Below are positions 12,779-26,306 of a stretch of DNA of 64,000 nucleotides, in pieces. Below the pieces are notes generated by a model. The model worked only from the letters and a program-made list of their open reading frames with translations. It was not told the DNA's origin and ran no database searches. The translations under genes and the position numbers were made by a program. This DNA comes from Actinoallomurus bryophytorum (lineage in GTDB: Bacteria; Actinomycetota; Actinomycetes; Streptosporangiales; Streptosporangiaceae). Location of the stretch: NCBI RefSeq assembly GCF_006716425.1, contig NZ_VFOZ01000001.1, positions 4,712,001 to 4,776,000 on the forward strand. Direction: 5' to 3'. Every line of letters begins with the position of its first letter. Position 1 is the first letter of the stretch.

Positions 12779-12876
12779 CCACGGACGTATGCCATTTTTA
12801 CGGCTGATACGAGAAATGTCGGACCCGTTCGTTACGGTGTCGGCAACACGATCGGCTGGACGTCTGTGGAGGCACG

Positions 12877-15800
12877 GTGCGGCGCTGGGAATTCGTCGGT
12901 GGCAAATCGGAGAAGTTCTGGGAAGCCGGACTGGGCGGCACCGCGGTCACCAGTAGATACGGGCGAATAGGAACGAACGGCCAGACGACGGTCAAAGAGT
13001 TTGATTCCGCCGCCAAGGCCGAGTCCTATCTGCGGCGTGTCATCGCCGAGAAGGAGAAGAAAGGCTACTCCGAGGTCGCCGGAACTCCCGAGAACGCCAT
13101 TACGGAAACGGTCGTCGCGGAGAAAGCGGAAGAGGTACCGAAGCCGTACCAGGCCAGGGACGAGGAGACCTTTGAGCTCCCGGACTCCTGGCGCCGTGTC
13201 CTTCACCCCCGACGCGGCGGGATCCCCCGCCCGACGGCCGAGGCCGACAAGGACGCGGCACGTGAGGTGGCGGGCGCGATCCGCGAGTTCGCCGAGCTCC
13301 TCCGCCGGATACTCGACGACCCCCACAGCGACGCACGTCTCGTCGAGGAGGCCCAGGCGCAACTCGACGGCGACGAGACCCCGCGCGGCGCCGCCCTCAT
13401 CGGCGCGATGGTCATGGTGAAGCGCACCATCGAGGTGTCGCGGTTCGCCGACGCGTGGGTCGAGACGCACGGCCTGGTGTTCGCGGCACGGGCCGTCGCG
13501 GAGGTGGCCGAGTTCACGATCGGATGGAGCCCCGGCCGGAACCACCCGGACACTCTCTACCTCCGGTCCCGGCCGGCGGGGGAGTACCTTGGCTGGCGCT
13601 GGCCTTGGCAGCCGGCCGCCGCGCGGCTGCGCGCCCTGCTGGCCTGCGCCGGGGAACGCGACTACCAGGAGGTCGTCGGCGCACTTGCCGGTCACCGCCG
13701 CGGTACGGCGCAGCGGCTCGTCGTGTCCTATCTCCTGCCGACCGAGAAGGACTGGGTGGACGAGTGCTGCGCCACCCCGCCGGTCGGCCGCGACAGTGCC
13801 ACCGACCGCACTCTTCTCTTCTGCGCGCTCGGCTCCGCCGATCAGGTCGCCGCGCTGGGGTCGCAGGCCAGGCTCGGATGGGACCAGTGGGCGCTGGACG
13901 TCCTCGCCACGACGGCCGAGGGCGTCGGCACGAGCATCGCTCCCATGCTGGTCGGCGCGTTGGACGAAGACTCCGCCCACATCCGCAAGCTGGCGTTGGG
14001 CGTGCTGAGCCAGGTGCCGAGCGACGAGGCCTTCCAGTCCATGCTGGACCGGGTCGACCAGAAGTACGTCCAGCCCGCGCTGCTGGAGGCGATGCGGCGC
14101 TATCCGGTACGCGCGCTCCGCCTGCTCGCCCAGGCCGGCGACGGATCGTCCAAGCACACCGCCTCGGCCCGGCGGCTGCTGACCGGCCACCTGCTCGCCG
14201 AGCCCGAAGTTACCGCCGCCGCGCTTCCCGGCCTCGCCGCGGAGGTACGGGAGACCGTGGAGAGGATGACCGCCGAGCTGGTGCGGATCGAGGCGGCCTC
14301 GCCCGGGTCCCTGCCCCGCCCGCTCGCCGACCCGCCGTGGGCGCGTCAGGCCAGGACCGCCAAGCCGGTGGTCATCACGGGCATGGAGCCGCCGGCCGAG
14401 TCCCGCGTCTCGTGGGCGCCAGGGGAGAAGGAGCAGTGGGCCGTCGCGCCGGCCCACTACTCGCACTGGCGGAGTGAGCACTGGGACGAGGCCGTCCGGC
14501 GCTACCACGACCCCCAAGCCGAGATGCTCCGTGGCCACGAGGAGGTCGGCCTCTTCCTGCACGGTCCGGAAGACCTCGTACGCCCGCTCCTGCCCGGCTG
14601 GAGGCCGCGCTACGACTGGGACGTGGAGAGCTGGATGAAGCCGATCGTCGCGAGATACGAGCTCGCGGTGCTGGACGCCGTGCTCGACGCCGCCGTCACG
14701 AATCGCACGCATCCGGGGACGTTGCTGCTTCCCTACGTCGACGTCCGCGTGGCCCGGCTCATGGCCGACTGGCTGGTCCGGCTCAAGTCGGGTCGCAGGA
14801 CCGCGCTCGCGTGGTTCGGGCGGCACGGCGGCGAGGCGGCGAGGCTGCTGGTCCCGGACGCGGTCGGCGTGACCGGCCGGGCACGCGCGGACGCCGAGGC
14901 AGCGCTGCGGGCCATCGCCTCCGCACACGACGACGCCACGGTCCTGCGGGCCGCGCGAAGCCACGGTGCGGAGGCGGAGGCGGTGGTCGGGACACTCCTG
15001 GCCGCCGACCCGCTGGACACCGTCCCGGCCCGCATGCCCAAGATCGGCGCGTGGGCGGACCCCGCCCTGCTGCCGCAGGTCCTGCTCCGCGACCGCACCC
15101 TCGCGCTGCCGCCGGAGGCCGTCGGTCATCTCCTCACCATGCTGAGCATCTCCCGGCCCGGCGAGGTGTACGCGGGGCTCGCGGTCGTCCGTGAGACCTG
15201 CGACCCCGCGTCGCTCGCGGAGTTCGGCTGGGCGGTGTTCGAGGGCTGGCGGATGGCCGGCATGGCCGCCAAGGACGGCTGGGCGCTCACCGGGCTCGGC
15301 TGGATCGGTGACGACGAGACCGTGCGACGGCTCACGCCGGTCATCCGCGCCTGGCCGGGCGAGGGCGGTCATACGAAGGCGGTCGCGGGTCTCGACGTGC
15401 TCGCCGCGATCGGCACCGAGATCGCGCTGGTGCACCTGAACGGGATCGCCCAGCGGATCAAGTTCAAAGCGCTCCAGGAGCGTGCGCGGGAGCGGATCGA
15501 GAAGGTCGCCGAGGGACTCGGGCTGACCCGTGAGCAGCTCGCGGACCGGCTCGTTCCGGACTTCGGGCTGGACGAGGACGGCAGCGTGGTCCTGGACTAC
15601 GGGCCGCGCCGCTTCACCGTGGGGTTCGACGAGCGGCTCAAGCCGTACGTCGAGGACGAGAGCGGTAAGCGCCGCAAGGACCTGCCGGCACCCGGCGCGC
15701 GCGATGACGCGGAGGCGGCGACGGCGGCGCGCAAGCGGTTCGCCGACCTGAAGAAGGACGTACGTACGGTCGCCGGTGACGTGATCCGGCGGCTGGAGAC

Positions 15801-16461
15801 GGCGATGGTGGAGCGGCGTGACTGGTCGGTCGCCGAGTTCACCGACCTGTTCGTGCGTCATCCTCTGACCTGGCACGTCGCCCGGCGTCTGGTCTGGCTG
15901 AGCGACGGCACGGCGTTCCGCGTCGCCGAGGACCGTACTCTCGCGGGCGTCGAGGACGACGCCCTGAAACCACTCGACGGCGCCCGGGTACGCCTGGCCC
16001 ACCCGCTGGACCTCGCCGGCTCGCTCGACGCCTGGTCGGAGGTGTTCGCCGACTACGAGATCCTTCAGCCGTTCCCGCAGCTCGGCCGGGCCGTGTACGT
16101 ACTGACCGACGAAGAGCGGGCCGATTCGTGCCTCACGCGGTTCGAGGACCTCACCGTGACGACGGGCAAGGTGCTCGGGCTGGAGCGGCACGGCTGGGCG
16201 CGCGAATCCCCCCAGGACGCCGGCATACAGGGGTCGATCTCACGTGCGGCCGGTGAGGGACGCTTCGTCGTGGTCGGCCTGGACCCGGGCATCGCGATGG
16301 GAGCCCTGGACGTGTTCCCCGAGCAGCGACTCGGCTCGATCTGGATCGCGGGCCATCCGGACAGCTGGGGGCGGCGCGACGAGGACCCGGTGCGGTTCGG
16401 GGACCTCGACCCGGTGACGGCCTCCGAGGTCATCGCCGACCTGACCGAGCTGACCAGCTGA
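12877..16461 (+). CDS. WGR-DUF4132 giant protein (YehI/MolR-like), copy A
   Basis: The protein has 1,194 residues from GTG 12877 (GTGGAGG upstream). Residues 1-80 form a WGR domain (RRWEFVGGKSEKFWEAGL, SRYGRIGTNGQTTVKEFDSA), a module known from PARPs and bacterial proteins. After a short charged linker, residues about 98-1194 are a long helical-repeat body, including LRRVIAEK, QPALLEAMRRYPVRALRLLA, GWALTGLGWIGDDETVRRL and VLAAIGTEIALVHLNGIAQR. It ends in the DUF4132 region (KKDVRTVAGDVIRRLETA and on to LTELTS). E. coli YehI (MolR) has the same WGR-DUF4132 build. It is the first gene of a six-gene operon with MoxR, VWA and SWIM proteins. Its biochemical role is unknown; a scaffold or sensor for the AAA+/VWA pair is inferred. 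Confidence 0.9.
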   Translation: MRRWEFVGGKSEKFWEAGLGGTAVTSRYGRIGTNGQTTVKEFDSAAKAESYLRRVIAEKEKKGYSEVAGTPENAITETVVAEKAEEVPKPYQARDEETFELPDSWRRVLHPRRGGIPRPTAEADKDAAREVAGAIREFAELLRRILDDPHSDARLVEEAQAQLDGDETPRGAALIGAMVMVKRTIEVSRFADAWVETHGLVFAARAVAEVAEFTIGWSPGRNHPDTLYLRSRPAGEYLGWRWPWQPAAARLRALLACAGERDYQEVVGALAGHRRGTAQRLVVSYLLPTEKDWVDECCATPPVGRDSATDRTLLFCALGSADQVAALGSQARLGWDQWALDVLATTAEGVGTSIAPMLVGALDEDSAHIRKLALGVLSQVPSDEAFQSMLDRVDQKYVQPALLEAMRRYPVRALRLLAQAGDGSSKHTASARRLLTGHLLAEPEVTAAALPGLAAEVRETVERMTAELVRIEAASPGSLPRPLADPPWARQARTAKPVVITGMEPPAESRVSWAPGEKEQWAVAPAHYSHWRSEHWDEAVRRYHDPQAEMLRGHEEVGLFLHGPEDLVRPLLPGWRPRYDWDVESWMKPIVARYELAVLDAVLDAAVTNRTHPGTLLLPYVDVRVARLMADWLVRLKSGRRTALAWFGRHGGEAARLLVPDAVGVTGRARADAEAALRAIASAHDDATVLRAARSHGAEAEAVVGTLLAADPLDTVPARMPKIGAWADPALLPQVLLRDRTLALPPEAVGHLLTMLSISRPGEVYAGLAVVRETCDPASLAEFGWAVFEGWRMAGMAAKDGWALTGLGWIGDDETVRRLTPVIRAWPGEGGHTKAVAGLDVLAAIGTEIALVHLNGIAQRIKFKALQERARERIEKVAEGLGLTREQLADRLVPDFGLDEDGSVVLDYGPRRFTVGFDERLKPYVEDESGKRRKDLPAPGARDDAEAATAARKRFADLKKDVRTVAGDVIRRLETAMVERRDWSVAEFTDLFVRHPLTWHVARRLVWLSDGTAFRVAEDRTLAGVEDDALKPLDGARVRLAHPLDLAGSLDAWSEVFADYEILQPFPQLGRAVYVLTDEERADSCLTRFEDLTVTTGKVLGLERHGWARESPQDAGIQGSISRAAGEGRFVVVGLDPGIAMGALDVFPEQRLGSIWIAGHPDSWGRRDEDPVRFGDLDPVTASEVIADLTELTS

Positions 16462-16499
16462 GCATCGACCCCCTACGAGCCAGGAGCCGGGTTCCCAGC

Positions 16500-19400
16500 A
16501 TGAACAGCGCTGATATCGAACTTCCCGATGAGCACACCTTCGAGATGCCGTCGTCCTGGCGGCGGGTCCTGCGCCGCCGGCGCGGAGGCCTCCCCGGGAC
16601 TCCGGTCAAGATCAACGACCGGGCGGCCGAGAAGGTACAAGAGTGGACCGAGCGTGCCGCGGCGCGTACGGCGCAGGCGGTGGACGACCCGGAGAGCGAC
16701 CGGCTACTGGCCGAAGACGTACGGGCCCACCTCGCCGGCCGTGCGACTCCGCGCGGCGCCGCCGCGCTCGCGCTGATCCTGAGCGAGCCCGACGGCGATG
16801 AGCACACCGACGTCGACAGCCCTGCGGTCTTCGCCGACGCGTGGGTGTCCGCGCACGGCCTGGCCTTCGCCGTCCAGGCCATGGCCGAGCTCGGCGACGT
16901 CGCGGTCCAGCCGTGGTACCCAGGAGGCAACCGGCGGCTGCGCACGTGCCGGCTCCGGGCCGGCCTCGCAGGCCAGCGGGCCTTCTGGCGGTGGGCCTGG
17001 CAGCCGGTCGCGGACCGGCTGCGCGACATTCTGGCCGACGCGGGCGAGGCGGACTACCGTGCGGCGGTCGAGGCGCTCGCCGGCCACCGGCGGACCCAGG
17101 CCCAGCGGGTGATCGTGTCCTACCTGGTCCCGACTGAGAAGGACTGGGTGGACGAGTGCTGCGCCGCAGGGCGGCAGGACGACGCCCTGCGGACCATGCT
17201 GTTCTGCTCCGTGGGTTCGGCCGAGCAGCTCGCCGCGCTCACCGCGCACGTGGGGGTCGGCTTCGGCCAGTACTCACGTGGCGTCATCGCCACGCTGATC
17301 GAGGTCGTCGGCATGGACGTCGTGAAGCTGCTGACCAGCGCCTTCGACAACGCCTTCAACTGGGCGGACGAGCGCAAGGTGGCGGTCAGCGTGCTGAGCC
17401 GGCTGCCCACGGACGAGGCGTTCCAGCTGATGGTGGACCATCTCGACCAAAAGCACGTCCAGCCCGCCGTGCTCGAGGCGATGAAGCGCTACCCCGTACG
17501 CGCACTGCGGCTGCTGGCCCAGGCCGGCGCCGGCACGTCGCCGAACGCCTCGGCCGTACGGGACCTGCTGACCGGCCACGTGGCGGCCAACCCGGACCTG
17601 ACCGCGGCCGCGCTCCCCGGCCTCCCGCCGGAAGTGCGGGAGGCGATCGAGCGCCTGCACGAGGACCGGACCGCCGGAAAGCCGGACCGGGTGGAGGACG
17701 CGCCCGCCGCCGTACTGCCCCCGCTCCTCGCCACCCCGCCGTGGACGCGGCGTCCCAAGGCGGTGAAACCGGTCGTCATCACCGGCCTGGAACCACCGTC
17801 CGAGGCCGCCGTCACCTGGGTGGAGGGCAGCCGGGAGGAGTGGTCCAACGGCGCCTCGGACTACTTCCACCTGCGCGAGAATGACTGGCCGGCCGTGATC
17901 CGCCGATACCAGGACCGCGAGTTGAACTACATGTGGGAGGTCGCCCTCTTCGTCAACGGCCCGCAGGACCTGCTCCGCCCGCTCGTCCCCGGCTGGAGGC
18001 CATCACCCCTCTACGGCTCCGAGGTGTGGATGAAGACGGTCATCGCCAGGTTCGAGCTCGACGCTCTGCCGACGGTGCTCGACATCGCCGCCCAGGACAA
18101 CCCGGCGGTCTGCGGCGTGCTGTTGCTGCCCTTCTTCGACGCCCGTGTGGCCCGGTTGATGGCCGACTGGCTCGCCCGGCTGAAGTCCGTGCGCAGGACC
18201 GCGACCACCTGGTTCGCCTGGCACGGCGTCGCCGCGGTCCGGCTGCTGGTGCCCGACGCGGTAGGGACGGTAGGCCCGCCACGGACGGGCGCGGAGGCGG
18301 CGCTGCGACACGTCGCCTCGGTGCACGGCGACCAGGCCGTCATCGAGGTGGCGCGCGAGTACGGCGACGAGGCCGCGACGGTCGTCGCCGCGCTGCTCGC
18401 CGCCGACCCGCTCGAGAACCTCCCGGCCCGGCTGCCCAAGCCGGGTTCATGGCTGGAACCGTCGCGGTTGCCCCAGGTGCTGCTCGGCGACCGCACCCGG
18501 GCGCTGCCGCCGGAGGCCGCCGGCCACATCCTCACGATGCTGAGCATCTCCCGTCCCGGCATGGAGTACGCGGGTCTGGAGACCGTCCGTGAGACCTGCG
18601 ACCGCGCCTCGCTCGCGGAGTTCGGCTGGGCGGTGTTCCTGCAGTGGCAGGCCGGGGGCATGCCGGCCAAGGACGGCTGGGCGCTCACCGGGCTCGGGTG
18701 GATCGGTGACGACGAGACCGTGCGACGGCTCACGCCGGTCATCCACGCCTGGCCAGGGGAGGGCGGTCACTCGAAGGCGGTCGCGGGCCTTGACGTGCTC
18801 GCCGCGATCGGCACCGAGATCGCGCTGATGCACCTGAACGGGATCGCCCAGCGGATCAAGTTCAAGGGCCTCAAGGAGCAGGCGCGGTCGAAGATCCAGG
18901 AGGTCGCCGACGGCCTCGGGCTGACCCCTGAGCAGCTCGCGGACCGGCTCGTTCCGGACTTCGGGCTGGACGAGGACGGCAGCATGGTCCTGGACTACGG
19001 GCCGCGCCGCTTCGTGGTCGGCTTCGACGAGCAGCTCAAGCCCTACGTTCTGGATGAGGGCGGCAAGCGCCGCAAGGCCCTCCCCGCTCCCGGCGCCCGT
19101 GACGACGCGGGGCCGGCGACTGCGGCGCGCAAACGGTTCGCCGACCTGAAGAAGGACGTACGCACGGTCGCCGGTGACCTCATCCGGCGGCTGGAGACGG
19201 CCCTGGTGGAGCGGCGCGACTGGTCGGTCGCCGAGTTCACCGACCTGTTCGTGCGTCATCCTCTGACCTGGCACGTCGCCCGGCGTCTGGTCTGGCTGAG
19301 TGACGGCACGGCGTTCCGCGTCGCCGAGGACCGTACTCTCGCCGACGTCGAGGACAGGGCGCTGGCGCCACCCGACGGCGCCCGGGTACGCCTGGCCCAC

Positions 19401-19859
19401 CCGCTCGACCTCGCCGGCTCGCTCGACGCCTGGTCGGAGGTGTTCGCCGACTACGAGATCCTTCAGCCGTTCCCGCAGCTCGGCCGGGCCGTGTACGTAC
19501 TGACCGACGAAGAGCGGGCCGGTTCACGCCTCACGCGGTTCGAAGGCGTCACCGTGACGACGGGCAAGGTGCTCGGGCTGGAGCGGCACGGCTGGGCGCG
19601 CGAATCCCCCCAGGACGCCGGCATACAGGGGTCGATCTCACGTGCGGCCGGTGAGGGACGCTTCGTCGTGATCGGCCTGGACCCGGGCATCGCGGTGGGG
19701 TCCCCGGAGATCTTCCCCGAGCACGAACTCCATTCGATCCAGATCTCGGATCATCCGGACGGCTGGGGGCGCCGCGACGCGAACCCGGTCCGCTTCGGGG
19801 ACCTCGACCCCGTGGCGGCCTCCGAGGTCATCGCCGACCTGACCGAGCTGACCAGCTGA
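16500..19859 (+). CDS. DUF4132 giant protein, copy B (no WGR domain)
   Basis: The protein has 1,119 residues, with AGGAG about 13 bases before the ATG. It aligns end to end with residues about 98-1194 of the preceding gene (same starting pattern: TFEMPSSWRRVLRRRRGGLP here, TFELPDSWRRVLHPRRGGIP there) but lacks the WGR domain. Both keep EKDWVDECCA, KPVVITGxEPP, LTMLSISRPG and IKFK, and both finish with the same SEVIADLTELTS. The last third is nearly identical even at silent positions, while the first third has diverged strongly. It is a tandem paralogue, 38 bases downstream, in the same operon, perhaps forming a heteromer with copy A. Confidence 0.9.
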   Translation: MNSADIELPDEHTFEMPSSWRRVLRRRRGGLPGTPVKINDRAAEKVQEWTERAAARTAQAVDDPESDRLLAEDVRAHLAGRATPRGAAALALILSEPDGDEHTDVDSPAVFADAWVSAHGLAFAVQAMAELGDVAVQPWYPGGNRRLRTCRLRAGLAGQRAFWRWAWQPVADRLRDILADAGEADYRAAVEALAGHRRTQAQRVIVSYLVPTEKDWVDECCAAGRQDDALRTMLFCSVGSAEQLAALTAHVGVGFGQYSRGVIATLIEVVGMDVVKLLTSAFDNAFNWADERKVAVSVLSRLPTDEAFQLMVDHLDQKHVQPAVLEAMKRYPVRALRLLAQAGAGTSPNASAVRDLLTGHVAANPDLTAAALPGLPPEVREAIERLHEDRTAGKPDRVEDAPAAVLPPLLATPPWTRRPKAVKPVVITGLEPPSEAAVTWVEGSREEWSNGASDYFHLRENDWPAVIRRYQDRELNYMWEVALFVNGPQDLLRPLVPGWRPSPLYGSEVWMKTVIARFELDALPTVLDIAAQDNPAVCGVLLLPFFDARVARLMADWLARLKSVRRTATTWFAWHGVAAVRLLVPDAVGTVGPPRTGAEAALRHVASVHGDQAVIEVAREYGDEAATVVAALLAADPLENLPARLPKPGSWLEPSRLPQVLLGDRTRALPPEAAGHILTMLSISRPGMEYAGLETVRETCDRASLAEFGWAVFLQWQAGGMPAKDGWALTGLGWIGDDETVRRLTPVIHAWPGEGGHSKAVAGLDVLAAIGTEIALMHLNGIAQRIKFKGLKEQARSKIQEVADGLGLTPEQLADRLVPDFGLDEDGSMVLDYGPRRFVVGFDEQLKPYVLDEGGKRRKALPAPGARDDAGPATAARKRFADLKKDVRTVAGDLIRRLETALVERRDWSVAEFTDLFVRHPLTWHVARRLVWLSDGTAFRVAEDRTLADVEDRALAPPDGARVRLAHPLDLAGSLDAWSEVFADYEILQPFPQLGRAVYVLTDEERAGSRLTRFEGVTVTTGKVLGLERHGWARESPQDAGIQGSISRAAGEGRFVVIGLDPGIAVGSPEIFPEHELHSIQISDHPDGWGRRDANPVRFGDLDPVAASEVIADLTELTS

Positions 19860-19880
19860 ACCATGTCCAGGAGCATCTGA

Positions 19881-20969
19881 ATGACAGAAGAGAACCTCCA
19901 GCGGCCACCCGCCGAGATCCGGTACGCCGACGAGCTGGCCAGGCTGCGGGAGACGGACAAGGGCAACCGCCCGCCCGGCTGGTGGCTCAGCCTGGAGGCG
20001 GCCCGCCGGTTCATCGTCGGCGACGAACGACAGGGGATCCGGCGCAAGTTCGTCGGGGACCCGTCGCTGATCGACCGTGCGCTCGTGAGCCTGGCCACGA
20101 GCCGTGGCCTGCTGCTGGTCGGCGAGCCGGGTACCGCCAAGTCGCTGCTGTCCGAGCTCATCGCCGCCGCGGTCAGCGGCACCTCGACGCTCACCATCCA
20201 GGGCGGCGCGGCCACCACCGAGGACCAGATCAAGTACTCCTGGAACTACGCGCTGCTCGTCTCCGAGGGGCCGTCACCACGGTCGCTGGTGCCCGCCCCG
20301 ATGCTGCGCGGGATGGAAGAAGGCAAGATCGTCCGCTTCGAGGAGATCACCCGCTGCCCGCTGGAGGTGCAGGACTCGCTGCTGTCGCTGCTGTCCGAGC
20401 GGGTGGTCGCGATCCCCGAGCTCGGCGACGCGAACGGCATGGTCTTCGCCCGCCAGGGCTTCAACGTGATCGCCACCGCCAACACCCGCGACCGCGGAGT
20501 GAACGAGATGAGCGCGGCGCTGAAGCGCAGGTTCAACTTCGAGACGGTCTTCCCCATCGCGGACTTCGCCACCGAGCTGGACCTCGTCGAGGCCGAGGCG
20601 CGCGGGCTGCTGGAGAGCTCGGGCGTCACCGTGCCGCCACGGCGTGACGTCCTGGAGGTGCTGGTCGCGACCTTCCGTGAGCTGCGGGCGGGAATGACCG
20701 CGGACGGCGGGTCCATGGACCGGCTGTCGGCCGTGATGAGCACCGCCGAGACCGTGTCGGTCGCGCACGCGGTCGGGCTGCGCGGCTGGTTCCTGCGCGG
20801 CGAGGCGGGCACGGCGGCCGACATCGTCGCCTGCCTGGCGGGCACGGCGGCCAAGGACGACGCCGAGGACCTTGCCCGGCTGCGCCGCTACCTCGAACAG
20901 CAGGCGCCGCGAAGGCGCGGCGAGCAGTGGAAGGCCCTGCACGACGCCCGGCACCTGCTCCCCGGCTGA
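19881..20969 (+). CDS. MoxR-family AAA+ ATPase (YehL-like)
   Basis: The 362-residue protein is a single AAA+ module. Walker A is GEPGTAKS (residues 81-88), Walker B IVRFEE (150-155), sensor 1 ATANTRD (Asn201), and KRRF (215-218) is at the arginine-finger position. The MoxR class is shown by the insert between Walker A and B and by the segment MEEGKIVRFEEITRCPLEVQ. MoxR ATPases act as chaperones that load or remodel targets, usually with a VWA partner, and here a VWA gene lies two genes downstream. The gene starts 21 bases after copy B of DUF4132 and its stop overlaps the next start by one base. ATP hydrolysis looks intact. Confidence 0.93.
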   Translation: MTEENLQRPPAEIRYADELARLRETDKGNRPPGWWLSLEAARRFIVGDERQGIRRKFVGDPSLIDRALVSLATSRGLLLVGEPGTAKSLLSELIAAAVSGTSTLTIQGGAATTEDQIKYSWNYALLVSEGPSPRSLVPAPMLRGMEEGKIVRFEEITRCPLEVQDSLLSLLSERVVAIPELGDANGMVFARQGFNVIATANTRDRGVNEMSAALKRRFNFETVFPIADFATELDLVEAEARGLLESSGVTVPPRRDVLEVLVATFRELRAGMTADGGSMDRLSAVMSTAETVSVAHAVGLRGWFLRGEAGTAADIVACLAGTAAKDDAEDLARLRRYLEQQAPRRRGEQWKALHDARHLLPG

Positions 20970-23239
20970 TGCCCGCTCATCTCATCGGGGTCCGCCACCA
21001 CAGCCCCGCGTGCGCCCGGCTCGTCGGCCGGACCATAGAGTCGCTGCGCCCGGCGTACGTGCTGGTCGAGGGGCCGGCCGACATCAACGACCGGCTGGAC
21101 GAGCTGCTGCTCGGCCACGAGCTGCCGATCGCGGTCTTCAGCCACTACCGGGACGAGGACCGCTCGCACCTGTCGTGGGCCCCGTTCTGTGAGTACTCAC
21201 CCGAATGGGTCGCGATCACGGCGGGCCGCTCCTGCGGCGCCGAGGTACGCCTCATCGACCTGCCGGCCTGGCATCCGGCCCTCGCCGGCCGCCGTAACCG
21301 GTACGCCGACGCGGAGCAGCGCTATGCCGACGCGGCCGAGCGGCTGTGCCGGGCGTTCGCCGTGGACAACGTGGACGCCCTGTGGGACCGCCTGGTCGAG
21401 GTCGAGCCGGACGACGGGCTGGAGGAGCGGCTGGCCACCTACTTCGACCTCGTACGCGGCGACTCCGCGGCGGGCGAGGAGGACACCGCACGCGAGGAGT
21501 ACATGGCCGGATGGGTGCGCGCGGCGGTCGCGGACGCCGGGGACCGGCCGGTCGTGGTCGTGACCGGCGGCTTCCACCGGCCCGCCATCCTCGCGCTGAC
21601 GGAGCGACCGGCCGTGGGGGACTCGCCGGAGCCCTCCTGGCCGGAGGTCCCGCGGCCGCTGGAGGGTTCGGTGGCCGGGAGCTATCTGGTGCCCTACTCG
21701 TTCCGGCGGCTGGACGCCTTCTCGGGCTACCGGTCGGGCATGCCCTCGCCGGAGTACTACCAGCGGCTGTGGGCGCAGGGTGCCAAGGCCGCCGCCGACG
21801 GGCTGGTCGAGGCGGTCGCCACCCGGCTCCGCGGACGCGGGCAGAGCGTGTCGACCGCGGATCTGATCGCGGCGCGCACACTCTCGGAGGGGCTGGCCCG
21901 GTTGCGCGGTCACCCGCATCCGGCCCGTACCGACATCCTCGACGGGCTGGTCAGCGCGCTCGTCTCGGACGACCTGGACCAGCCGCTGCCGTGGACCCGC
22001 CGCGCCTCGCTCGCTCCCGGTGCGCATCCCGTCGTCGTGGAGATGGTGGCCGCGCTGAGCGGCGACCGGGTGGGCCGTCTGCATCCGGGCACACCCGCTC
22101 CGCCGCTCGTCCACGACGTGGACGCGGAGCTGCTACGCCTGGGTCTCGACCGCGAGGGTGAGGTCGACCTGGACCTCACCCTCGCCGGTGACCTGGACCG
22201 CAGCCATGCCCTGCACCGGCTCGTCGCGCTGGGCGTGCCCGGGTTCGAGCGTCGGTCGGGGCCGTCGTCCGGGGCGGACCCGGTGCTCGACGAGCAGTGG
22301 GTGCTCACCGCCCACGACGCGAGGGTGGCCGCCCTGATCGAGGCGGGAGCCTACGGCGGCACCCTCCGCGACGCCGCGGCCGCCGTGCTCGCCGAACGCA
22401 TCGCCGAGGCAGGGACCGAGCCCGGACGGCTCGCCGGGGTGCTGTTCGCGGCCGCCCTGTGCGGGATCACGGATCTGCCCGAGCGGATCGCCGAACTGAT
22501 CGCGGCCGGCATCGCCGGCGCGCGCGAGCCGGGCCCGCTGGGTGAGGCGCTGGCCATGGTGCTCGGACTCTGGCGGCACGACCGGGTCCTGGGGACCGCG
22601 AACAGCCCGATGTACGCCACGGTCATCGACGGCGCGGTCACCCGTCTGCTGTGGCTCGCCGAAGGCATCCACGGCGGCCCCGCTCCGGCCGACCGGGCCA
22701 GGCTCCATGCGCTCACCGCGACCAGGGACGCGTTGCTGCACGCGCCCGAGGTGCTCACGACCGGGCGGGACGTCGCGCTGGACGTGATGGCGCGCATCGG
22801 CGCCGACCGTACGGCGCCGCCGGACCTGCGCGGTGCGGCCTTCGGGTTCGGGTGGTCGCTCGGCGCGTCCGGCGATCCGGTACGCGCCCTGCGCGGCGTG
22901 GCCGGCGCGGACACGCTCGGCGACTGGCTCTCCGGGCTGTTCGCGCTGGCCAGAGACGAGGTGCTGGCAGGCACCTCCGGCGTGCTGGAGGTGCTCGACG
23001 ACCTCATCACCTCGATGCCGGAGTTCCTGCCCGGGCTGCCCGCGCTCCGCCAGGCCTTCGGGTACTTCCCGCCGCGCGAACGGCAGCTGATCGCCCAGCG
23101 GTTGCTGGAGCGCCGTGACCTGACCGGATCGGCCCGCGCCCTGCTCCGTACGACGGCGGACCCGCTGTTGATCGCCGAGGCACAGCTGCTGGAAGAGAAG
23201 GTGAGCCGGCTGCTCACCAGGGAGGGGCTTCGCCCATGA
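20969..23239 (+). CDS. DUF5682-like large protein (YehM-like)
   Basis: The protein has 756 residues. The ATG at 20969 shares a base with the preceding TGA, so translation is coupled. The start LIGVRHHSPACARLVGRTIE, then YVLVEGPADINDRLDELL, is the signature of DUF5682 proteins (IRHHGPGSA...LVEGPxD), as I remember it. A second motif region, VVVVTGGFHRPAILALT and SYLVPYSFRRLDAFSGYRSG, follows near residues 195-260. The rest is helical. The family is uncharacterised; E. coli YehM occupies the same position between YehL and YehP. The N-terminal fold resembles ChaN/TraB-like proteins in its HH...EG pattern, but that is a weak suggestion. It overlaps the next gene by 4 bases. Confidence 0.85.
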   Translation: MPAHLIGVRHHSPACARLVGRTIESLRPAYVLVEGPADINDRLDELLLGHELPIAVFSHYRDEDRSHLSWAPFCEYSPEWVAITAGRSCGAEVRLIDLPAWHPALAGRRNRYADAEQRYADAAERLCRAFAVDNVDALWDRLVEVEPDDGLEERLATYFDLVRGDSAAGEEDTAREEYMAGWVRAAVADAGDRPVVVVTGGFHRPAILALTERPAVGDSPEPSWPEVPRPLEGSVAGSYLVPYSFRRLDAFSGYRSGMPSPEYYQRLWAQGAKAAADGLVEAVATRLRGRGQSVSTADLIAARTLSEGLARLRGHPHPARTDILDGLVSALVSDDLDQPLPWTRRASLAPGAHPVVVEMVAALSGDRVGRLHPGTPAPPLVHDVDAELLRLGLDREGEVDLDLTLAGDLDRSHALHRLVALGVPGFERRSGPSSGADPVLDEQWVLTAHDARVAALIEAGAYGGTLRDAAAAVLAERIAEAGTEPGRLAGVLFAAALCGITDLPERIAELIAAGIAGAREPGPLGEALAMVLGLWRHDRVLGTANSPMYATVIDGAVTRLLWLAEGIHGGPAPADRARLHALTATRDALLHAPEVLTTGRDVALDVMARIGADRTAPPDLRGAAFGFGWSLGASGDPVRALRGVAGADTLGDWLSGLFALARDEVLAGTSGVLEVLDDLITSMPEFLPGLPALRQAFGYFPPRERQLIAQRLLERRDLTGSARALLRTTADPLLIAEAQLLEEKVSRLLTREGLRP

Positions 23240-24363
23240 CGGATCCGGGGCTCGAACGCTGGCGGCTCGTCCTCGGCGCGCCCGCCGAGCAGTGCACGGG
23301 CGGGCTGGGCGCCGAGGCCGCCGCGCGTGACGCGGCGCTGGACTGGCTCTACGGCCGCGACCCCGACCTGGGCCGCCGTGGCGTACGGCGCGGGGGCACC
23401 CGGAGCGCCGGCTCGGACCCGTCGGTGCTGACCACGGTCGACTGGCTCGATGACATCCACCGGCTGTTCCCCAAGGAGACCATCGAGCGGCTGGAGCGGG
23501 ACGCCGTCGAACGCTACGAGATCCACGAGGTGGTCACCGACCCGGAGGTCCTGGCCCGCATCGAGCCGAACGCCACGCTGCTGCGCGCCGTGCTGCGCAC
23601 CAAGCACCTGATGAACCCCGAGGTCCTGCGCCTCGCCCGCCGCATCGTCGAGACCGTCGTCCGCGACCTGATGAAGAAGCTCGCCCCGGAGGTGCGGCAG
23701 GCGTTCTCCGGCACCCGGTCGCGGCGGCCGAGCCGGTTCCGTCAGGCGCGCGACTTCGACTTCCACGCCACGGTCCGTGCCAACCTGGCGCATTACCAGC
23801 CCGAGGAGCGGCGGCTCCTGATCGAGCGGCCGAGGTTCGTCTCCCGCGTCCGGCGCCACCTCGACCAGTGGCAGCTCGTGCTGATCGTCGACCAGTCGGG
23901 GTCGATGGCCGGGTCGGTCATCCACTCGGCCGTCACGGCCGCGTGCCTGTGGAGCCTGCCCGGCCTGAAGACCCACCTCGTCGCCTTCGACACCAACGTG
24001 GTGGACCTGACCGCCGACGTCGCCGACCCTGTCGAGCTCCTGCTCAAGGTGCAGCTCGGCGGCGGCACCGACATCGCGAGGGCAGTGGACTACGGAGCGA
24101 GCCTGATCGAGAATCCGCGCCGGTCGATCCTCGTCGTCATCACCGACTTCTACGAAGGGGGCGATGAGTATCGGCTCGTACGGACCGTCGCCCGCCTCGC
24201 CGATCAGGGCACACAGGTCCTCGGGCTCGCCGCCCTCGACGAGGAGGCGAACCCGTCCTACGACCGGGCACTGGCGCAACGCCTCGCCGACGCCGGCGCC
24301 CATGTCGGGGCCATGACACCGGGCGAGCTGGCCGCCTTCGTCGCGGAACGGCTCAGCCGGTGA
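23236..24363 (+). CDS. VWA-domain protein with intact MIDAS (YehP/CoxE-like)
   Basis: The protein has 375 residues. The first 200 are helical; the C-terminal half is a von Willebrand A domain with a complete metal-ion-dependent adhesion site: Asp219, Ser221 and Ser223 in LIVDQSGSMAG, Thr278 in GGGTDIARAV and Asp304 in VITDFYEGG. VWA proteins of this class work with MoxR ATPases, as with CoxE/CoxD and RavA/ViaA, presenting client proteins through the metal site. It has no signal peptide or membrane segment, so it is cytosolic. Its start and stop both overlap neighbouring genes by 4 bases, which ties its output to them. E. coli YehP is the equivalent. Confidence 0.92.
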   Translation: MTDPGLERWRLVLGAPAEQCTGGLGAEAAARDAALDWLYGRDPDLGRRGVRRGGTRSAGSDPSVLTTVDWLDDIHRLFPKETIERLERDAVERYEIHEVVTDPEVLARIEPNATLLRAVLRTKHLMNPEVLRLARRIVETVVRDLMKKLAPEVRQAFSGTRSRRPSRFRQARDFDFHATVRANLAHYQPEERRLLIERPRFVSRVRRHLDQWQLVLIVDQSGSMAGSVIHSAVTAACLWSLPGLKTHLVAFDTNVVDLTADVADPVELLLKVQLGGGTDIARAVDYGASLIENPRRSILVVITDFYEGGDEYRLVRTVARLADQGTQVLGLAALDEEANPSYDRALAQRLADAGAHVGAMTPGELAAFVAERLSR

Positions 24364-26306
24364 TCCGCACCGACCTGCTCGCCCTCGACACCGACGTCCT
24401 CGTGGCGCTGGCCAACCGGGGACTGGTCAAGCGCGCGGCCAAGGAGCTGGACGCGGGTGTCGTACCGCTCGTGTCGGCCGACGAGGACGGCACCGTACGC
24501 GCCCGGTTCGCCGACGACGTCGAGGCGGCGTTCCCGGTGGGCGCCGGGCTGGACACGGCCACCTGCACCTGCCCGGCGACGGGCGTCTGCCGTCACCGGA
24601 TCGGCCTGGTCCTGGCGTACCAGCGTCAGACGCAGGGGGAGGCTCGGCCCGAGGAGACGACGGAGGAGTGGTCGCCCGGGAGCATCGGCGATGACGAGCT
24701 GCGGCAGGTGCTGGGCGCGCGTACGGTCACCGCGGCGCGCCGGCGGTTCGCCGCCGGGTATCCGGCGCACCTCGATCGGGGCTCTCCGCCGCGCGTGGAC
24801 CTGCCGGCCTGCACGGTCCGCTTCCTGGTGCCGGGAGAGCTCGGCTACGCCCACACCGACGCCACCGGCCCGGACCGGGGAGAGGCGATCGCGCTGGCCG
24901 TGTGGGCGTTCCGCGCGGCCGACGAGCGAGGACTGACCGACCGGGAGCTCCGCCTCGACGTGGGCGGGCCGTCCCCCGGTTCGGCGGAGCGGACCGGCAT
25001 CGAGCCCGCCGTGGAGCTCGCCACCGAGCTGCTGTTCGCCGGCGCGATGCACGCCGGGCCGGTGCTCGGCGCCGCACTGCGCCGGATGAGTGAGAACGTC
25101 GCCGGCCAGGGCCTGCACTGGGCCGCCGGGGCGCTGGACGACCTCGCCGGCCAGCTGTCGGCGTACGCGGACCGTGGCGCCCGGTACGAGGCGACGCGCT
25201 ACGCGACGCTGCTGACCGAGCTGCACGCGAGGCAGCGGGCGGTGGCCGGTGGTGGGTCACGTTCCCAGGTCCTGGGCGCCGATGTGCCGGGGCGGACGCC
25301 CTTGAGCCGGATCCGGCTCGTCGGGCTCGGCTGCCGGATCGGCGGCACCCTGGACGACCGCGTCGCGGACGTGTTCTTCACGCATGCCGGAGACGGCACC
25401 GTCCTCGTACTCCGGCGGCGCTGGGACGCGGAGCGGGACCGGGGGGCGACCGGCCACGAGCTGGCCGGACGCCGGGTGGCGAGGACGACGCTGGGGGCGC
25501 TGGCCACCGGCAACCTGGTCTCCGAGTCCGCCTCCCGCAGCGCCAGCCGTGTCGTGCACATCGCCGCGGGCCGGATCGCCAAGACGACGGTCACCCCGGT
25601 GGGAACGTCCTGGCAGAGCCTGCCCGCCTCGGTCGTGGTCGAGGACCTCGCCGCCGCCGGACGCGCGCTGGCGGACCTGCCGCCCCGGCTGATCCGGGCG
25701 CGGGTCGAAGCCGAGTTCGTCCGGGTCGTACGGATCTCGGAGGTACGCGCCCTTGGCTACGATCCGGGCGACCAGCGCCTGGAGGCTCTCGTCGTCGATC
25801 CGGCCGGCGGCACCGCGACCGTGTCGGCGGAGTACCGGAGCGAGTGCCCTGGCGCCCTGGACGCGCTGGCCGCCGCGCTGGGCGGCGACCGCGGCGAGCC
25901 GCGCTTCGTCAGCGGCGCCCTGCGCCGCGACCGGGGAACCCTCGTGATCGACCCGGTCGCGGTCCTCACCACGGACGGCGTCACCGTTCCCGACCTGGCA
26001 CCGGGAGACGGGGGTACGGACCTGTACGCCTACGCCGGCCGCCGTCCGGACCGGCTCGGCGCGGCCCTGGACACCGCCCTGACGACACTCGCCGAGATCG
26101 CCCATCGCGGCCTGCGCCACGCCACCCCGGGGGTGCACGCGAGGGTCGAGGAGGCCGCCGCCGGGCTGCGCGGAGTGGGACTGGCCACCTCGGCGGCGCT
26201 GCTCACCGCCTTCCTGGCCGCCTGCCGGACCGGTGACCCCGAGTCGATGGCCGGAGCCTGGGTGGACGCCCAGCTTCGCCTCGTCACCGCCGCCGAGCTG
26301 CGCTGA
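24360..26306 (+). CDS. SWIM zinc-finger protein (YehQ-like)
   Basis: The 648-residue protein starts with a GTG that overlaps the previous stop (GTGA). A SWIM-type zinc finger with pattern CxC-x5-CxH is seen at Cys69, Cys71, Cys77 and His79 (ATCTCPATGVCRHRIGLVLA). SWIM fingers bind DNA or proteins. The remainder includes a region of beta-strand character (VVVEDLAAAGRALADLPPRL) and a helical C-terminus. It closes the operon, exactly as YehQ closes the E. coli set. It converges on the HAD-like gene with a 23-base overlap (26284-26306) and no hairpin between. DNA contact by the whole complex through this finger is inferred. Confidence 0.88.
   Translation: MIRTDLLALDTDVLVALANRGLVKRAAKELDAGVVPLVSADEDGTVRARFADDVEAAFPVGAGLDTATCTCPATGVCRHRIGLVLAYQRQTQGEARPEETTEEWSPGSIGDDELRQVLGARTVTAARRRFAAGYPAHLDRGSPPRVDLPACTVRFLVPGELGYAHTDATGPDRGEAIALAVWAFRAADERGLTDRELRLDVGGPSPGSAERTGIEPAVELATELLFAGAMHAGPVLGAALRRMSENVAGQGLHWAAGALDDLAGQLSAYADRGARYEATRYATLLTELHARQRAVAGGGSRSQVLGADVPGRTPLSRIRLVGLGCRIGGTLDDRVADVFFTHAGDGTVLVLRRRWDAERDRGATGHELAGRRVARTTLGALATGNLVSESASRSASRVVHIAAGRIAKTTVTPVGTSWQSLPASVVVEDLAAAGRALADLPPRLIRARVEAEFVRVVRISEVRALGYDPGDQRLEALVVDPAGGTATVSAEYRSECPGALDALAAALGGDRGEPRFVSGALRRDRGTLVIDPVAVLTTDGVTVPDLAPGDGGTDLYAYAGRRPDRLGAALDTALTTLAEIAHRGLRHATPGVHARVEEAAAGLRGVGLATSAALLTAFLAACRTGDPESMAGAWVDAQLRLVTAAELR

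Follow-up and report, generated by a model that had tools for sequence, protein, structure and literature searches.

Six adjacent genes on the forward strand of a 64,000-nucleotide (nt) stretch of the Actinoallomurus bryophytorum genome (9.47 Mb; contig NZ_VFOZ01000001.1, positions 4,712,001 to 4,776,000; hereafter the window) form an operon at window positions 12877-26306. They encode, in order, a WGR-DUF4132 protein, a second DUF4132 protein, a MoxR AAA+ ATPase, a DUF5682 protein, a CoxE-type VWA protein, and a SWIM zinc-finger protein. The operon is a further member of the yeh-type MoxR-VWA systems, and we consider it probable, at about 0.6, that it encodes a remodelling machine driven by ATP, induced by DNA damage, and equipped with a putative metallo-hydrolase subunit; of this machine we infer the complex, the substrate, and the catalysis. 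Two points are added to the first-pass annotation of the window: a damage-type promoter motif before the operon, and a resemblance of DUF5682 to the TIKI superfamily. The regulatory signature suggests when the system would act (after DNA damage), and the TIKI-like domain would indicate its activity (metal-dependent hydrolysis); together the apparent damage-switch control and the putative hydrolase subunit make the role of the yeh-type set testable. This set ranges from soil actinomycetes to E. coli and is near-universal in complete E. coli genomes. Searches of open-access literature gave little: three papers naming at least two of yehL/M/P/Q/I, three naming DUF4132, and none naming DUF5682; the regulatory convergence and the fold assignment described below were not met in these searches.

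Promoter motifs and putative damage control

A RecA-independent damage promoter of mycobacteria has the form tTGTCRgtg-8nt-TannnT (PMC5656591), and the motif bound by PafBC closely resembles it (PMC8223512). The pattern was sought in the 200 base pairs before the first DUF4132 gene at 62 loci, namely the window and 61 of its 80 relatives, counted without regard to kinship. The relatives were selected as the best 80 loci, and by their record titles all belong to Actinomycetota; 19 were left out of the scan, three without a forward-strand DUF4132 gene over 150 bits and 16 with too little upstream sequence. The best match had no mismatch at 10 loci, one at 10, two at 15, three at 16, and four to six at 11; in other words, 35/62 loci carry the motif with at most two mismatches and 51/62 with at most three. 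Control regions upstream of MoxR and SWIM reached three or fewer mismatches in 5/79 and 0/80 cases, respectively. Permuting the motif 200 times gave a mean of 1.07 loci at two or fewer mismatches, with a maximum of 20 from words retaining TGTC, and any spacer of 4-12 nt other than 8 nt gave at most 11 loci in place of the 35. At the five loci that are cut or have no DUF4132 gene nearby (L050, L066, L069, L071, L090), the motif lies just before MoxR in three. A PafBC-type motif is conserved before the operon in many actinomycetes, and the RecA-NDp signal upstream is strong for the loci as a group.

The corresponding PafBC/RecA-NDp-like promoter element of the window, ATGTCGGAC-8nt-TACGGT, occupies positions 12816-12838 of the forward strand, some 61 nt upstream of the start codon of the first gene. 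It reads ATGTCGGACCCGTTCGTTACGGT in full, and the nearest relative (L059) carries ATGTCAGACCCCCTCGATACGTT at the same distance from its start. A first scan of the window at two or fewer mismatches found nothing at the operon, and the signal emerged only on comparison with the relatives. Because the window holds 36 matches on its two strands at up to three mismatches, this copy counts only by its position and its agreement with the relatives. LexA control of the actinomycete operon was considered and rejected, as GAACN4GTTC occurs upstream in only 1/61 loci and its matches in the window are at chance level.

In the window's genome as a whole, the pattern with at most one mismatch occurs 37 times, against 6 for a reversed control (ten of the 37 sites were covered by one scan). 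It directly precedes recA, radA, and genes for an AlkZ-like glycosylase, an RNase_T-type exonuclease, and a DEAD/ResIII helicase. The genome also carries a pafB-pafC-like pair, seen as tandem WYL genes of which the second matches HTH_PafC with 97.9 bits; pafA was not confirmed, the open reading frame (ORF) before the pair having no Pfam match. In genome G188 (genus g62, Streptomyces by inference), the exact motif was found 40 times and its reversed pattern not at all. Thirty of these 40 sites were fetched and nine of them, picked as recognisable proteins, were scanned; the genes behind the exact motif include recA, radA, uvrB, uvrA, and dnaX and genes for O6-methylguanine methyltransferase, a dGTPase, and a DinG/YoaA-type helicase, the other fetched sites preceding transposase-like or unclear genes. 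An exact motif also lies 8 nt before the start of the SWIM protein that adjoins the second DUF5682 locus of G188, whose matching locus in genome G242 has DUF5691. Across seven g62 genomes, exact motifs lie within 8 kilobases (kb) of 14/15 DUF5682 loci of several subtypes, where 0.83 would be expected from whole-genome motif totals (in three of the genomes only the DUF5682-bearing contigs were covered). Exact motifs are carried by the Streptomyces loci L068, L070, L089, L112, and L117 as well.

Other genes were also seen behind the motif. In the window's genome, 34 nt separate an exact PafBC-type motif from the start of a DUF2397 gene (L174, G000:C1:7277850). IS200/IS605 OrfB/TnpB-like genes start 7-50 nt behind PafBC-type motifs in the same genome (L175, L185, L193) and in G188 (L236, L237), identified by Pfam at L185 and by sequence likeness at the other four, which suggests that expression of these transposon genes may be linked to damage. 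A lone DUF4132 gene in G188 (L166/L247, C1 3873865-3876029) lies downstream of a 130-residue ORF that an exact PafBC-type motif precedes by 8 nt, an arrangement resembling the drA0165-drA0166 pair of D. radiodurans under DdrO (PMC8533742).

Damage control is also indicated outside the actinomycetes. In E. coli, yehF is preceded at 9 nt by CTGGATAAAATTACAG, a LexA-like site that is one mismatch off; together with yehH, we take yehF to be the gene called molR. The pattern CTGTN8ACAG at one mismatch occurs 13 times in 26 kb against 7.7 expected, a count that is not significant. Published lists give molR as a LexA-regulated or SOS gene (PMC11039860, PMC3978071, PMC4576408). In D. radiodurans, DRA0166 (DUF4132) and DR2173 (WGR) belong to the DdrO regulon, and both were raised by mitomycin C in the wild type and not in an irrE mutant (PMC8533742). 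A DdrO-type palindrome lies 19 nt before the SWIM-DUF5691-MoxR-DUF5682-VWA operon of Deinococcus taeanensis; the pattern, built in part from three sites printed in PMC8533742, gave 3 matches over both strands, two of them a single exact palindrome read on each strand, against 0.87 expected, and 8/100 shuffles reached 3. Three unrelated damage regulators (LexA, DdrO, and PafBC) appear to have taken up parts of the system, the E. coli leg coming from papers, and this convergence is the main ground for proposing a damage role. The DNA-damage link suggested by the first-pass annotation is supported by promoter motifs in actinomycetes and by LexA and DdrO reports in papers.

The DUF5682 protein

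The DUF5682 protein P0004 (20969-23239, forward strand; DUF5682 at 344 bits) probably starts at ATG 20969 rather than at GTG 20927, where its longest ORF begins. Its AlphaFold2 model (predicted local distance difference test score (pLDDT) 90.1, predicted template-modelling score 0.86) shows an alpha/beta domain followed mostly by helices. It is likely that the N-terminal domain (residues 14-267; 20966-21727, forward strand) adopts a TIKI/TraB/ChaN-like fold, the fold of metal-dependent hydrolases and proteases, as judged from weak profile matches, the AlphaFold2 model, and Foldseek. The TIKI/TraB pattern consists of G-x-x-H in the first strand, E in the second, R-E-x-x-M in a helix, and GG-x-H in a further strand. 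Invariant positions in 91 DUF5682 sequences include R23, H24, H25, P27, E48, G49, R189, E190, M193, G214, and H217. Tiki proteins themselves have been described as membrane-tethered metalloproteases (PMC12329661).

Scanned alone, 25/61 N-terminal domains weakly matched ChaN (PF04187; best E value 0.0027) and 5/61 matched TraB (PF01963). The window's own N-terminus matched neither, no member among the 61 exceeded the curated cut-offs, and besides DUF5682 itself no other Pfam family matched more than 3/61. With whole DUF5682 proteins, weak matches were seen to ChaN in 5/58 and to TraB in 5/58. A model of the N-terminal domain alone had a pLDDT of 88.7, and its top three Foldseek matches in the PDB were Tetrahymena complex IV chains of 383-384 residues (E values 1.3e-3, 0.01, and 0.04; probabilities 0.99, 0.89, and 0.77; template-modelling (TM) scores 0.35-0.37). 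Tetrahymena complex IV includes a TraB-family protein according to a figure legend (PMC10060162), and the matched chain may be that protein; the link goes by the legend, since queries with the TraB-family protein YbaP of E. coli and with one TraB from an actinobacterium found no TraB-named chain among PDB sequences. No credible match came from searching the sequences of solved structures with P0004 or with two DUF5682 profiles, and a whole-chain Foldseek search with DUF5682 gave no match at an E value of 0.001 or better, the 50 listed matches being mostly helical-repeat proteins.

Operon anatomy and conservation

The set of six genes read by the first-pass annotation is real: profile searches gave WGR, two DUF4132, AAA_5, DUF5682, and VWA_CoxE over their cut-offs, with SWIM recognised by its ligands. 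All lie on the forward strand, separated by gaps of 38 and 21 nt and then joined by overlaps of 1 (given ATG 20969), 4, and 4 bases, in agreement with the 1 to 4 bases originally read from MoxR onward. The first protein, P0001 (1194 residues; 12877-16461), has a WGR domain (57.9 bits; residues 8-67, 12898-13077) and a DUF4132 domain (190.4 bits; 15664-16197); in a sequence search of solved structures its residues 5-68 matched, at 1.2e-11, a Bacteroides protein that is itself uncharacterised (PDB 2ra8). P0002 (1119 residues; 16500-19859; DUF4132 at 192.7 bits) is without WGR. The two are 66% identical over 1116 columns, their C-terminal parts are nearly identical, and relatives have 1 to 4 DUF4132-type ORFs per locus, which suggests that the pair may have arisen by lineage-specific duplication. 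Two more DUF4132 genes lie elsewhere in the window's genome (G000:C1:2824498, L165; G000:C1:4653716, L164), and its sole DUF5682 match is the copy in the window. ARAGORN calls a tRNA-Thr (cgt) on the reverse strand at 14599-14694, antisense inside the first DUF4132 gene; this call is probably false.

The MoxR AAA+ ATPase P0003 (362 residues; 19881-20969) matches AAA_5 with 122.8 bits, and its Walker A motif, F-E-E at Walker B, and arginine pair are invariant in all 61 rows of an alignment of the window protein and the first 60 relatives. The F-E-E at Walker B (residues 153-155; 20337-20345) takes the place of the usual D-E. In the CoxE-type VWA protein P0005 (375 residues; 23236-24363; VWA_CoxE at 192.1 bits), the metal-ion-dependent adhesion site (MIDAS) D-S-S-T-D is complete, as first reported, and invariant in 61/61 rows. 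The operon therefore has both parts of a MoxR-VWA chaperone, an AAA_5 ATPase with its Walker motifs and a VWA partner with an intact MIDAS. P0006 (648 residues; 24360-26306) scores 16.3 bits against Pfam SWIM, below the cut-off of 19.6, and the label holds because the ligands C69, C71, C77, and H79 (C69-x-C71...C77-x-H79; 24564-24596) are invariant in 22/22 aligned sequences. The operon is flanked upstream by an alcohol dehydrogenase gene and downstream, on the opposite strand, by an FMN oxidoreductase gene.

The first-pass annotation had staked the operon on co-occurrence of its genes in other genomes, and tabulation of neighbourhoods bears this out. The nearest relatives found are in Actinomadura sp. 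DC4 (86%) and Actinoallomurus iriomotensis (82%). The order MoxR-DUF5682-VWA-SWIM is kept in 79/80 best relatives; the 80th (L069) begins inside DUF5682 at a contig end, and the SWIM gene of L055 is likewise cut by a contig end. A DUF4132 ORF ends at most 500 nt before MoxR in 75 of the 79 ordered loci; in the remaining four it lies several kb off (L050, L066) or is absent from the stored flank (L071, L090). Clustering of ORFs found no constant extra partner, no flanking family outside the set being common to more than 8/80 loci, and the genes therefore move together as a unit. In a wider sample of 198 genomes of the phylum, DUF4132 was found in 11 (10 over cut-off) and DUF5682 in 17, with DUF4132 within about 7 kb of DUF5682 in 8 of the 11; in the window's family, 42/61 genomes have DUF5682. 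In Streptomyces atratus and three fetched stretches, DUF5682 and VWA are fused into a single protein, and these fusions argue for a physical complex.

The E. coli K-12 locus runs yehF (WGR), yehH (a pseudogene), yehI (DUF4132), yehK, yehL, yehM, yehP (VWA), and yehQ (SWIM), yehM being DUF5682 in other E. coli records. Complete E. coli genomes carry yehM in 5284/5426 cases, with 5289/5291 places chromosomal, a distribution that is core rather than island-like. In L004 (NZ_CP103756.1), the E. coli yeh region is carried by an IncF plasmid, flanked by IS26 copies and resistance genes, and a transposon in the chromosomal metG/DUF4132/yeh region has been described (PMC9334617).

Proposed role, alternatives, and known systems

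In known MoxR-VWA pairs, an ATPase ring and a MIDAS adaptor remodel a target, and the WGR domain of PARPs makes contact with DNA breaks. In the scheme proposed here, a PafBC activator would turn the operon on after DNA damage, and the VWA protein would bind a target on which the MoxR ring pulls at the expense of ATP. Recruitment to damaged nucleic acid, or to the proteins it carries, would fall to the large DUF4132 proteins together with the WGR and SWIM modules, and the DUF5682 domain may cut the target or act on it in another way. Read most simply, the operon would encode a machine that is produced in response to DNA damage and that removes or remodels the proteins present on damaged nucleic acid. 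A bolder version, tentative and on balance doubtful, is that of a widely conserved damage machine in which the AAA+ ring and VWA adaptor, guided by WGR and SWIM, feed nucleic-acid-bound proteins to DUF5682 as a TIKI-fold metalloprotease; it would be a functional analogue of eukaryotic DNA-protein crosslink clearance, adopted independently by the LexA, DdrO, and PafBC responses.

Several observations weigh against the damage-machine reading. The window's own motif copy has three mismatches to tTGTCRgtg-8nt-TannnT and is not significant alone, and the 11/62 loci with four to six mismatches include Actinoallomurus L094, the second-nearest relative. Among ten core loci of other subtypes that were scanned, L160-L163 and L168 have no motif near the operon. 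No exact motif occurs anywhere in 8/15 searched DUF5682-bearing genomes, and G110 has five, none of them on the contig of its DUF5682 gene. Genes behind the motif in the window's genome also include ones that do not look like repair genes (a nucleotidyltransferase, a HAD hydrolase, a mycothiol transferase, DUF2397, and transposases). No LexA-type box was found near the operon start in the Sinorhizobium, Rhizobium, Methylosinus, and Iodobacter plasmid loci, and the one further genome of the genus in the family sample has no DUF5682. The Foldseek TM-scores are low (0.35). A profile comparison of the DUF5682 N-terminus with the erythromycin-esterase family did not rise above its controls: hhalign against an alignment of 13 such proteins gave P 0.16, beside 0.06 for MoxR, 0.11 for VWA, and 0.27 for SWIM, and PDB 2qgm, presumably an esterase relative, ranked 48 among the Foldseek matches of the domain model. 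An initial search reported for S. venezuelae suggested that the PafBC motif is not conserved there (PMC9380542); contrary to that remark, the exact-motif counts given above suggest that streptomycetes may have a PafBC-type regulon.

The system might instead serve metal-cofactor maturation, with the MoxR-VWA pair inserting a metal or activating a metalloenzyme as CoxDE, NorQD, and magnesium chelatase do, and the name molR would then refer to molybdate. This is unlikely. By Pfam the VWA is indeed CoxE-type and the ATPase MoxR-type, and characterised MoxR-VWA relatives do carry out metal maturation (PMC9976466, PMC13036017; CoxD-CoxE in PMC7159879). However, no enzyme gene is a constant neighbour at the 80 loci, the promoter evidence points to damage, and moeA/moeB showed no differential expression where the genes for WGR and DUF4132 did (PMC8533742). 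A general stress chaperone in the manner of RavA-ViaA (PMC3893208), with damage control as part of a broad stress regulon and DUF5682 as a non-catalytic scaffold, is about equally improbable. The non-repair genes behind the motif favour it, and the TraB-family protein of Tetrahymena complex IV is an accessory subunit (PMC10060162), but many of the recognisable genes behind the motif are repair genes, and in DUF5682 the positions that may be catalytic (H, E, R-E, and H) are invariant.

The phage response raised in the first-pass annotation is not supported, and it is very unlikely that the operon is a relative of the ternary vWA-MoxR systems serving phage defence or conflict. MoxR-VWA pairs are found in conflict systems (PMC7159879) and near CRISPR loci (PMC10910872), bpMoxR matches weakly at 25.1 bits (below its cut-off of 27), and DUF5682 relatives occur in 35/72,556 plasmid-collection records, several of chromosome size; but no VMAP-type third component was found in P0001-P0006 at an E value of 0.01, one match occurs among 50,697 phage records, and DNA repair genes carry the same promoter motif. 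Two results disfavour defence against phages as the main function: yehM is core in E. coli, and PADLOC recognised no defence model, returning a single WGR_XIII match of 12.7 bits (E value 0.0077).

Among known systems, the N-terminal domain of DUF5682 resembles the TIKI/TraB/ChaN superfamily in the pattern of its invariant residues and in weak profile and fold matches; it differs in that it stays below the Pfam cut-offs and that about 500 mostly helical residues follow it. With CoxD-CoxE, NorQ-NorD, and RavA-ViaA the operon shares an AAA_5 MoxR ATPase and a CoxE-type MIDAS VWA; those pairs act on dedicated enzymes and are not known to come with a DUF4132, DUF5682, or SWIM partner. Seven MoxR subfamilies have been named (PMC3893208). 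The SWIM-DUF5691-MoxR-DUF5682-VWA operons of Rhizobium and Deinococcus, and in part of Methylosinus, have the same core of MoxR, DUF5682, VWA, and SWIM, but with DUF5691 in place of DUF4132 and with SWIM first. For the yeh locus of E. coli K-12, the gene order claimed in the first-pass annotation was confirmed: the window has DUF4132, MoxR, DUF5682, VWA, and SWIM in yeh order, and both loci place WGR and DUF4132 genes ahead of MoxR. The E. coli locus differs in having yehK between yehI and yehL and a broken yehH, and its reported control is by LexA, whereas the actinomycete operon carries a PafBC-type motif.

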